Below, in pieces: positions 2,428 to 6,882 of a DNA stretch of 64,000 nucleotides (within the stretch, counting starts at the first letter, position 1; each line of letters opens with the position of its first letter). The position numbers and the translations under genes are program-made. A model generated the notes under the pieces. The model ran no database searches, had not been told where the DNA came from, and saw nothing but the letters and a program-made list of their open reading frames with translations. The stretch covers positions 1 through 64,000 of the forward strand of contig CANMFX010000001.1 in the NCBI GenBank assembly GCA_947497315.1. The letters are read 5' to 3'. Source of the DNA: an uncultured Sphingomonadaceae bacterium. GTDB lineage: Bacteria; Pseudomonadota; Alphaproteobacteria; Sphingomonadales; Sphingomonadaceae.

Positions 2428-4278
2428 TCAGCCAAGGGGCGAGGCTCGCAAGACGGCCAGAAGCAAACGATGCTCTTCAACGGCGCGCATTGCCGGATCC
2501 GAGATTTCAGAAACAACTTTTTTGGCCGGGACAAATTGCTGATAGCCGCTGAACACATATGCCATGTTCAGTAAAAATCTGTCGCGCTCGGCACTCTCGT
2601 CAATTGTTTTGGCAAGATCAAAAATCGGTTCAGATTTTCCCGCATAAACCAGCTGTGAAGCCAGCTCCGTTAAAAGCTGAGATTTTACCTTCCCCGACTC
2701 CACGGTGTAGACTGCCCGTCGGGCGATCTTTAGATATCTGTTATAGTCATCTTGCGATCCATGCGTAGCTGCAAAACCGAAGTTGGCAATCCGCGCCCGC
2801 ACCTGTATCTCTTGATCCTCAATATGTTGCAGTCGCAGTTCTGCTTCTTCATACTGACCGGTACGCGATTCATATCTGGCCAGCATGCTGACCGTGGAGT
2901 CGCTAACGGGAACGAAGTCAGGCCCTTCAACGAGGCCAATAGCGGTCGAAATCGCTTTTTCTGCCACAGCGCTTTGACCATAATTATCGGCAATTTGAGA
3001 GAGGCGGATATATCCCTGAACTTGCCTGTCCCGGTTTGGCTGAAGCTGCAGCACAGCGACCGCTTCTTGAAACCGCATACTGTGAATCAAGATCATCGCG
3101 ATGGTATCCATAGCCGCCTGCTGCACGTCTTTATCAGGAATACGCTGGACCAGGCTTGTTGCCAATTTTGAATCTCCCGAGACGGCGACTGCAGTGGCCA
3201 ACCGCCTCCAATCATTGTTCCGACGCTCGGCCGACATTTGTACCTTACGGGGTTGATTTGCGCGTAGAAAAATTAACTCATCAGCGATAGGACGCCATTC
3301 TGTTTGGTCCAGCTTTCCGGCTCCGATATCGAAAATCGTTTGTAACGCGGCGGCACGGTCAGTGGGAAAACTGCTGACGTCGTCCACCGCCTTCAGCGCG
3401 AAGTCGAGCCTGTTTCCCGCAATGGCCGAGCGGGTAAAGCTTTCGAATATGCGGAACCGATCCTCTGGGTGATCCAGGGCAGCCATCTTACGCCTCGCCT
3501 GGCCAAAAAGTTCCTCCGCGTCAGCCATATGCCCATTTTTCGACAATTCTGCAGCCACCCGGCTTTTGGCCGTAGCTTCCCACAAGGGGGCCTTTATATG
3601 GGTCAGTAGTTTCGTCGCATCAGCTATCCGACCTTTGTCAATCAGTGTCATAACAAGAGATTCCAGCACCATGCCTTCATGGCTTTCATCACCCTGGCTG
3701 CTATTTAGAATAAGGTCGCGAGCATCATCGAACCGGCCCTTGAGAGCCAGCGCATGTGAGAGTTGATATACACCGACATATCTCATCGGCTCCCCCGGTT
3801 GATTAGTGGCTACCAGCTCTTTCAAGGCCGTATCGACATCAGATGTCCGTATCAGATTTATGATATAGGCTGCCCTTGCAGTTTCATAATATTCCCGGGA
3901 TGCAATCCGGGACAACAGAAGCCTGCCCCGCTGCACCGGATCCCGAGTCGGCACAGAAATAATCGCCACAATTGCCGAGTCTTTGAAAGCCGGATTGCTT
4001 GAACTGTCTGGCATTGAATCGACTGCAGCTTCTGCCAAATCCAGTCTGCGTAGCAACGCCAATGCTGTAACACGTCCAAGCTTTGCCACTGCTTCATCCT
4101 CAGAGTCTTGCAGGGCATTTTCAATTTCTTCCAAACGGGTATTAAGCGTGTCCACACAGGCCGCATCTTGTGATGCAAGGCAGTTTGCTATACTAGTTTG
4201 GGCCTGCGCCGTGTCACCCAACAGGGCAAAGCCGGTAGCGGCAAGAAACACACAGACAGTCAACCGAAGATCAGACAT
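2428..4278 (-). CDS. Secreted TPR/alpha-solenoid-like protein
   Basis: The start is placed at 4278 because AGGAG lies 9 nt upstream and a clear signal peptide begins there (MSDLRLTVCVFLAATGFAL, then cleavage after AQA). Upstream in-frame codons lack this. The 616-residue mature chain is almost entirely helical repeats with Ala/Leu/Asp-Ala spacing such as GRFDDARDLIL, GRIADATKLL, GHMADAEELFGQA, MRFQEAVAVLQL and GQYEEAELRLQ, about 35-40 residues apart, which is the TPR/SEL1-like solenoid pattern. Such proteins are scaffolds for protein-protein contacts; here the location would be periplasmic. No catalytic motif is seen and no neighbour hints at a partner. Confidence 0.7.
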   Translation of the reverse strand: MSDLRLTVCVFLAATGFALLGDTAQAQTSIANCLASQDAACVDTLNTRLEEIENALQDSEDEAVAKLGRVTALALLRRLDLAEAAVDSMPDSSSNPAFKDSAIVAIISVPTRDPVQRGRLLLSRIASREYYETARAAYIINLIRTSDVDTALKELVATNQPGEPMRYVGVYQLSHALALKGRFDDARDLILNSSQGDESHEGMVLESLVMTLIDKGRIADATKLLTHIKAPLWEATAKSRVAAELSKNGHMADAEELFGQARRKMAALDHPEDRFRIFESFTRSAIAGNRLDFALKAVDDVSSFPTDRAAALQTIFDIGAGKLDQTEWRPIADELIFLRANQPRKVQMSAERRNNDWRRLATAVAVSGDSKLATSLVQRIPDKDVQQAAMDTIAMILIHSMRFQEAVAVLQLQPNRDRQVQGYIRLSQIADNYGQSAVAEKAISTAIGLVEGPDFVPVSDSTVSMLARYESRTGQYEEAELRLQHIEDQEIQVRARIANFGFAATHGSQDDYNRYLKIARRAVYTVESGKVKSQLLTELASQLVYAGKSEPIFDLAKTIDESAERDRFLLNMAYVFSGYQQFVPAKKVVSEISDPAMRAVEEHRLLLAVLRASPLG

Positions 4279-4445
4279 TGTTAACGCTCCTGTCGTGAAT
4301 AGGCCTCGCCCATGATCAAAAACTTCCATTTTTCAAGTCTGAAAGCATTTGGATGTGAGAGGGCTGAAGGCTTGGCAAAACCTGTTTCGCCAAATTTGAA
4401 ATCGACTTTACGTGTAAAGGAGGCAAACGCGAAGGCGCATAAATG

Positions 4446-4634
4446 CAGAGCAGCGGTGCGGTTTTACGGGTTCTGCTCTGAACGTTGACAGGGTATTTGG
4501 AACTTGTCTCTAGGGTCGCTGGCTGGCGCGGGGGCTGGTTTAATTCAACCTTTCCAGTCAGTTGCCCGGCTTCCCGGTGCTCGTTTCCCCCCTAAGGAAC
4601 GACCATACGGGAAGCCAAGAGATACTGTCTTTTT
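4446..4634 (+). ncRNA. Candidate structured non-coding RNA, unidentified
   Basis: An intergenic stretch between two minus-strand genes contains nested pairings that read best on the plus strand. A hairpin has an 8-bp perfect stem (4446-4453 with 4473-4480). A closing stem pairs 4487-4491 with 4625-4629 and 4505-4511 with 4618-4624 (one G-U). A 9-bp stem (4568-4576 with 4608-4616) lies inside, with a further partly paired segment within its loop. A five-T run follows the closing stem at 4630-4634, as at an intrinsic RNA 3' end. Size (about 150 nt from 4487) and long closing stem are loosely like 6S RNA, but I do not recognise a family and the usual zapA neighbour is absent. Confidence 0.4.
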
Positions 4635-4917
4635 CAAGCGATCTAAGTTGGCCTTACATTTACTCGATGCCATTTGAATAGATACAAATCGATACCAGAT
4701 TTAAGGCAGGCACCAGATCACCGGCCGCGCCTGCAAAATGACCAAAATGCATGAAAATAGGGAGCCGTGACTATTGGCTTCTGGCTTCAATGAAGTTCAG
4801 CTCTGTTGCTTCTGATGGATCCCGATATCGAGGAGGTACTGCGGGGAAGTTGTCACACCTTATTTCCATTGCCGGCAGATGCCCGATTGGAATCCCGAAA
4901 CAAGCCGCAGCGCACAG
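4635..4917. other. Non-coding stretch, nothing recognised
   Basis: Between the RNA candidate and the 3' end of the globin gene. Open frames here are antisense to, or run into, the globin gene and show no family resemblance. I see no clear terminator. Confidence 0.4.
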
Positions 4918-5394
4918 TCAGGAATTTGATGCCGCCCTATATTTTGAGATACTCGATTTCCCAAAAGAGCTTTGTATCATTGTCAGAGCAATTCCATCAT
5001 ATGCTTTTGTCCACGCCGCTTCCATCTCGGGCGTAAAATCGGATCCGAGAACATCTCGAATCATATGCAGGAGCGCACGGCCAACATCTTCATAATGCTC
5101 GATCTTTACTCCGTAGACCAAATGACGCCTCGCGAGATCTCCCAGCATTGGCAACAAATCCGGCAAGTTATGAATTTGCGACACGATCATGCCCAGCATG
5201 TTTGTCAATTTTTCGGATTGAACAGAAATATCTCCCACAAACAATCCGCGAAGCTCTGGCTTGTCTTCAAACAGCCGCTGATAGAATATTTCTCCTGCAC
5301 GCGCATTTTCAACACTTACGTTGAGGAAACTTCTCCGGACAATATCAATCTCCGACACAGTCAGAATATCCTGAGCCTTTGATTGATGAGCCAT
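4918..5394 (-). CDS. Single-domain globin
   Basis: A 158-residue protein with the globin fold pattern of the flavohaemoglobin-like branch. The proximal haem ligand is the His near residue 91 in ARRHLVYGV, and Gln59 (VQSEKL) is a likely distal E7 residue. There is no FAD/NAD reductase domain, so it is a stand-alone globin rather than Hmp. Known members bind O2, NO or peroxide and act in NO detoxification or redox sensing; which applies here is not shown. The ATG has GGGAG about 11 nt upstream. Three inverted repeats lie in the 90 bp before the start (5417-5480), suggesting tight control. Confidence 0.85.
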   Translation of the reverse strand: MAHQSKAQDILTVSEIDIVRRSFLNVSVENARAGEIFYQRLFEDKPELRGLFVGDISVQSEKLTNMLGMIVSQIHNLPDLLPMLGDLARRHLVYGVKIEHYEDVGRALLHMIRDVLGSDFTPEMEAAWTKAYDGIALTMIQSSFGKSSISKYRAASNS

Positions 5395-6333: not shown

Positions 6334-6882
6334 ATGCAACCTGTTGTCTATGACGTAGCCGTATCTATTGATTGTTACATCTCTGGCCCGGATGGAGATA
6401 TATCAAAATTCGCCCACGAAGGTCCGGTTGTCGATGACTATAATCAGAGGCTATCCACCTATGCATGCGCTATCATGGGTCGGAAGACGTATGAATTTGG
6501 GTATAAGTACGGGCTGGAACCCGGCGGCAATCCTTATCCACATCTCAAAACCTATATATTTTCACAGACACTCAACCTTCCCGCAGAACGAGAGGTAGAG
6601 ATTGTGCGCGATAACCAGAAGGCGCTTTTGCAGGAGTTGCGGGAAGATCAGGATGGTCCAATCTATCTTTGTGGTGGCGGTGATTTTGCCGGTTCGCTCA
6701 TGATCGATGGCGAGATTGACATTATCCGCCTCAAAAGAGCCCCGATCTTTCTGGGCGGCGGAACAAAGCTGTTTGGTGACACAGCTTGCAGCGGCAATGT
6801 GTCTTGCACGGGTTCGAAAGTATATGACGGCGGTTACATATTTCAGGAGTTCACTTCATCGGCATTGCAAGAGAGGATTTGA
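6334..6882 (+). CDS. Dihydrofolate reductase / RibD C-terminal-like family protein
   Basis: A 182-residue protein of the YyaP/YwjB type in the DHFR superfamily (RibD_C). Visible features are the N-terminal strand with VYDVAVSIDCYISGPDGDI, the CAIMGRKTYEFG motif near residue 50 (the family's GRxTY), and the nucleotide-binding LCGGGDFAGSLM near residue 115 (GG-[GD]-x-hydrophobic). The family binds NADPH and reduces pterin- or pyrimidine-like substrates; the substrate here is unknown. GGAG lies 7 nt before the ATG. It appears to be a single-gene unit ahead of the AbgT transporter gene. Confidence 0.82.
   Translation: MQPVVYDVAVSIDCYISGPDGDISKFAHEGPVVDDYNQRLSTYACAIMGRKTYEFGYKYGLEPGGNPYPHLKTYIFSQTLNLPAEREVEIVRDNQKALLQELREDQDGPIYLCGGGDFAGSLMIDGEIDIIRLKRAPIFLGGGTKLFGDTACSGNVSCTGSKVYDGGYIFQEFTSSALQERI

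Follow-up and report, generated by a model that had tools for sequence, protein, structure and literature searches.

Comparison among relatives shows that the window, i.e., the stretch of 64,000 nucleotides analysed here, carries an element whose predicted three-way junction is conserved in five genomes and whose shared conservation ends at a T-run. This element is very probably a real structured RNA gene, and we file it as a new RNA family of a familiar kind. The complete statement, namely a free-standing gene on the + strand for a small RNA that folds into a three-way junction, ends at the T-run and acts in trans with the sequence CCCCUA as seed, is in our judgment fairly probable. The RNA, which has no match in Rfam, was spotted in the raw sequence and came through a comparative test that could have failed. 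With it a defined locus for deletion and a covariance model for searches are at hand in a group in which few named small RNAs were found.

Fold and setting of the element

The sequence set consisted of the window genome (G000; 3.4 Mb on nine contigs), three genomes with close copies (G014, G024 and G030), one genome with a diverged copy (G019) and two possible members (G020 and G021). In the window the element is flanked by two − strand genes coding for a TPR-like protein (2428–4281) and a globin (4918–5394). The TPR-like protein matches Pfam TPR_19 with 22.7 bits, which is under the cut-off of 25, and searches in PHROGs and NCBIfam were uninformative. The initial annotation had described the stretch as intergenic with no protein frame. 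It does lie between the two genes, but six open reading frames of 36–58 amino acids overlap the region 4420–4650.

All the stems that had been named, as well as the five-T tail (TTTTT at 4630–4634), are present. The outer helix is GACAG/CTGTC, the closing helix is TGTCTCT/AGAGATA with one G-U pair, and the 9-bp stem is formed by GGCTTCCCG/CGGGAAGCC at 4568–4576/4608–4616. In the minimum-energy fold the closing helix encloses two arms in a three-way junction (Table 1). A longer arm with an inner hairpin rises from the 9-bp stem, and arm 1, a second long arm, occupies the space originally taken for a large internal loop.

The region 4440–4640 folds with −83 kcal/mol versus a mean of −65.7 kcal/mol for its dinucleotide shuffles, none of 200 shuffles being as low (z −4.01), which agrees with the earlier estimate that such a nesting would rarely arise by chance. 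The z value of the element itself (Table 1) was likewise obtained with 200 shuffles, and control stretches of the same length across the window (n = 100, 40 shuffles each) had a mean z of −0.29 and a minimum of −3.7. We also considered a structured RNA extending up to 4300; this was rejected, as 4300–4486 gave a z of +0.47 with 132 of 200 shuffles folding as well.

Two of the proposed helices are less well preserved. The 8-bp hairpin at 4446–4480, which spans the upstream block, is present in the window with CAGAGCAG/CTGCTCTG at 4446–4453/4473–4480 but is intact only there: of the eight pairs six are found in G014, five in G024, four each in G030 and G019, three in G020 and two in G021. Since its pairs are not conserved at the other loci we do not regard it as part of the RNA. 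The weakest helix of the fold itself is the outer one, for which the sequence alignment gives five of five pairs in the window, G030 and G024, four in G014 and G019, two in G021 and one in G020.

The minus strand folds well too, with z values of −2.6 to −6.0 in the five copies which in G030 and G014 are lower than those of the plus strand, as is expected of long hairpins. We favor the + strand because only there the T-run follows the closing helices, because of the side on which the upstream block is situated, and because three pairs are G-U in all five copies. Scans of 4200–5000 returned neither a simple hairpin-plus-T terminator nor a sigma-70-like hexamer pair.

Table 1. Features of the element (window coordinates)
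Feature	Position	Strand	Evidence and remarks
Structured small RNA, three-way junction, about 136–148 nt	4487–4634	+	Fold z −4.8; conservation; diverged copy at 61 bits; seven two-sided compensatory pairs
Conserved upstream block TGCRSTTTTRCSGGTTCTR, 19 bases	4457–4475	+	Kept at 7 of 7 loci; likely promoter or regulator-binding site
Outer helix, 5′ side (weakly supported)	4487–4491	+	Partner 4625–4629; 5, 5, 5, 4, 4, 2 and 1 of 5 pairs at the seven loci
Closing helix, 5′ side	4505–4511	+	Partner 4618–4624
Arm 1 of the three-way junction	4513–4567	+	Fold; two two-sided compensatory pairs
Arm 2: 9-bp base, inner hairpin 4581–4587/4596–4602, C-rich loop 4588–4595 (CCCCCTAA)	4568–4616	+	Five two-sided compensatory pairs
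Closing and outer helices, 3′ side, then T-run: presumed terminator	4618–4634	+	Invariant to 4633 in four genomes

Conservation and compensatory changes

Besides the window genome itself, a BLAST search of 60 relatives found three genomes with the element, which all belong to its genus, and a second search of 32 genomes of the genus returned the same four as strong matches together with short fragments (E 0.01 to 0.95) which we take as chance. When named genome records were scanned with a pattern, matches were obtained in one record of Sphingorhabdus sp. EL138 and in three of uncultured Sphingomonadaceae. Matches in two spirochaete records (L079 and L082) were dismissed as chance; these records are near-identical to each other, have no model match and are presumably coding at the matching position.

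In the four close copies 114 of 120 columns are invariant in the core (4505–4624), as compared to 119 of 160 upstream and 28 of 171 downstream. Over 4492–4634 the count is 135 of 143, and in the 50 bases past 4633 only 8 of 57 columns are invariant. The mean pairwise identity is 0.97 for 4492–4634, 0.84 for 4282–4440 and 0.48 for 4635–4795, so that the conservation common to the four copies stops at the T-run. Window and G030 are still 0.93 identical over 4700–4800, whereas the other pairs drop to 0.10–0.50; for the 3′ edge of the RNA the evidence thus comes from G024 and G014.

Over 4635–4900 the window closely resembles G030, with G024 and G014 being strongly different, and upstream of the element the genomes group as window–G024 and G030–G014. 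This pattern is one of recombination or indel turnover whose boundary lies where the RNA ends.

The four copies differ in seven columns of 4499–4634. Five of these are paired, and all five paired changes keep a standard pair. Taken alone this is weak evidence, since a pair would survive 57 of the 94 transitions that are possible at paired sites. No indels occur in the core of the four copies and the upstream stretch has one-base indels.

More information came from a covariance model built from the four close copies, which scored in five of the 32 genus genomes (E up to 1), with one copy in each. The new copy, in G019, has an E value of 1e-14 (score in Table 1) and had escaped blastn at E up to 1. 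Folded alone it forms the same closing helix and two arms with a z of −4.94. It continues into CTAGTTTTT, where a converging gene ends, so that here, too, a T-run follows the closing helices, with letters different from those in the window.

In the five-copy model alignment 98.7% of the cells pair, and the number of two-sided compensatory pairs was seven versus 1.4 ± 1.1 in shuffled alignments, none of 500 shuffles reaching seven and slid controls giving 0 to 1; all seven come from G019 alone and are counted on an alignment fitted to the model. The number of further pair types (18) was reached by 20 of 500 shuffles. When the alignment was based on sequence only, two-sided changes were seen at 5 of the 53 pairs, and at 17 of the 53 the pair was broken or gapped in at least one sequence. 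Arm 1 of the G019 copy contains one G-A mismatch and one further G-A/other mismatch. In the five copies every lettered cell of the closing helix is paired, with one-sided variation at two pairs and a gap at one pair in G019, whose core has indels of one and two bases. By inspection, the longest conserved unpaired run is the CCCCTA in the loop of arm 2, which is found in all five copies. A lack of conserved stems or of compensatory changes among relatives had been named beforehand as what would refute the RNA; in the core, both conserved stems and compensatory changes were found.

Surroundings, distribution and known RNAs

Seven of the 32 genus genomes have the upstream block, and the same seven have the TPR protein and the globin. 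As a pattern the block gave seven exact matches in these 32 genomes, all at this locus, the pattern having been derived from those very loci; three matches with one mismatch lie elsewhere, inside long open frames, and the reversed control gave one match. In its own genome, the 14-base core of the block has 19 sites when one mismatch is allowed, no more than the 23 of the reversed control. In the diverged pairs (window–G019, window–G021 and G019–G021) the segment 4455–4476 has an identity of 0.77–0.82, the highest of the upstream segments compared. Judged from its sequence conservation the block is likely the promoter or a regulator site of the RNA. A further stretch, 4338–4398, located about 100–160 bases upstream of the RNA and without notable structure, has an identity of 0.74 with G019, in which the TPR gene lies elsewhere, but of only 0.44 with G021; 4330–4454 was detected by blastn in 4 of the 32 genus genomes, solely at this locus.

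In G019 the RNA is located on contig 1, downstream of a small open reading frame and against the end of another gene, whereas the TPR gene (31% identity) and the globin gene are on contig 3, where no model match was found beside them. The small open reading frame of the window (+ strand, 1974–2288, 104 amino acids) is present in 7 of 60 relatives and has no match in Pfam, PHROGs or NCBIfam. Beside the RNA it is broken in G024 and not detected in G030, which has only a paralogue on another contig. Elsewhere in the genome, G000 and G014 have a 73% identical paralogue; in G024 and G030 there is a relative of the same type. As each neighbor is absent, moved or broken in some carrier of the RNA, the RNA has no obligate partner among them. 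This suggests a gene that stands free and acts in trans; a small RNA gene would thus be kept where the surrounding genes have been lost, moved or broken.

In G020 and G021 the TPR and globin genes are arranged as in the window, and the upstream block is present as well, but the RNA region is different. This region has z values of −2.5 to −2.7, and a 22-bp hairpin is found roughly at the position of arm 2. In neither genome can the core fold be recognised, and on the expected strand the loop lacks CCCC. The model matches only the opposite strand, with 16.7 and 19.6 bits. Relative to the upstream block the arm-2-like hairpin (G021, L057 1103–1225; G020, L058 1161–1206) thus appears as if inverted, and arm 2 could be either flipped or rebuilt. 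We regard both genomes as possible members of the family. In both, a further globin paralogue lies some 10 kb away from the first (G020:C2:1392029-1392499 and G021:C1:3270453-3270920).

At the level of family and order we searched drawn genomes with strict filters. A draw of 397 genomes at family level returned G000, G019 and a weak match in G104 (E 0.06), and a draw of 396 genomes at order level returned G000 and weak matches in G521 (E 0.007) and G587 (E 0.08). With about 400 genomes per search these weak matches, which are in other genera, are taken as chance. Of the five model members the family draw returned G000 and G019 and the order draw only G000; being based on drawn genomes and strict filters, these searches are no proof of absence from other genera. 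Plasmids gave no match at E 1e-5 and viral contigs no exact match to the pattern. As far as searched, the element is confined to one group within the genus, a few Sphingorhabdus-type bacteria, to judge from these sequence matches.

The Rfam search proposed in the initial annotation assigned the element to no family of Rfam 15; together with the conservation and compensatory change in relatives, this bears out the designation as an unassigned structured RNA. Matches of 4250–4950 to microRNA and RMST_1 families (E 1.2 to 9.2) are far below the cut-offs and were discarded as chance.

A loose likeness to 6S RNA had also been pointed out. 6S RNA forms one extended hairpin that opens into a large bubble at its centre. 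The element shares with 6S RNA (RF00013), as generally known, the length range, a closing stem and the free-standing gene, but its fold is branched with two arms, and the 6S model has no match in the window at gathering score or in 4250–4950 at E up to 10. Moreover, a full-length match to the 6S model is found at G000:C3:672626-672800 (38.5 bits, E 3.6e-6; family cut-off 46.4), which is probably the 6S RNA of the window genome. We therefore dropped the identification as 6S RNA.

The literature, searched by title and abstract with most subscription journals outside the coverage, contained no paper on this RNA. Among the small RNAs described in sphingomonads, SuhB of Sphingopyxis granuli is 61 nt long, Hfq-dependent and reported as conserved within a genus, and it binds to the 5′ UTR of thnR (PMC6563040). 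Both are intergenic small RNA genes and, if the trans reading is right, would also share the mode of action. The element differs from this description in being about twice as long and in having a three-way junction. FnrS is another small RNA described in sphingomonads. Small RNAs of Zymomonas are the subject of PMC6970203.

Proposed function and alternative readings

We propose that transcription would start a short way downstream of the block at 4457–4475 and would stop at the T-run, with the closing helices serving as terminator. The RNA may then act in trans on mRNAs, with the CCCCUA of the arm 2 loop as putative seed against purine-rich ribosome-binding sites; the arms may stabilise the RNA. 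We are less sure of these last two steps. Pairing of C-rich loops with ribosome-binding sites is a known mode of small RNAs, and for this reason we take mRNA pairing as the most likely mechanism. Trans base-pairing with CCCCUA as candidate anti-ribosome-binding-site seed is nevertheless put forward tentatively, as a plausible proposal.

The main rival to mRNA pairing is a structured RNA that binds or sequesters a protein, as 6S RNA does with RNA polymerase and CsrB-type RNAs with their protein. The compact fold with little unpaired sequence and the retention of both arms in the diverged copy would suit such an RNA, but the element has no 6S match, a probable 6S RNA lies elsewhere in the genome, and no short repeated motif for binding stood out; we consider this reading unlikely. 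Somewhat more doubtful still is a new compact three-way-junction family with its own upstream regulator site which follows a route other than mRNA pairing, e.g., holding a protein, and evolves fast, the second arm being seemingly flipped or rebuilt in G020 and G021 while the block is kept.

A cis-acting leader or attenuator of a neighboring gene, for instance a − strand leader of the TPR gene, is very improbable. The well-folding minus strand would be consistent with it, as would the TPR start codon following about 220 bases after the element on that strand and the order of TPR gene and element, which is kept in the four close copies. In G019, however, the RNA is not adjacent to the TPR gene, the three invariant G-U pairs would be A-C on the other strand, and the T-run is placed after the closing helices on the + strand only. 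For a leader on the + strand, the next gene with a family match starts only at 6334.

Least probable is that the free-standing RNA gene we prefer is no RNA at all but a DNA-level feature, e.g., the remnant of a mobile element, or else a gene for a small protein, with incidental pairing: the very high identity over a short stretch in four copies and the overlapping short reading frames, one of which has 115 amino acids in G014, are set against a single copy in each of the five model-positive genomes, the negative plasmid and viral searches, and the indels in the G019 core and upstream in the four close copies. A coding frame was rejected on these indels, the indel-free core of the four close copies being uninformative on frame.
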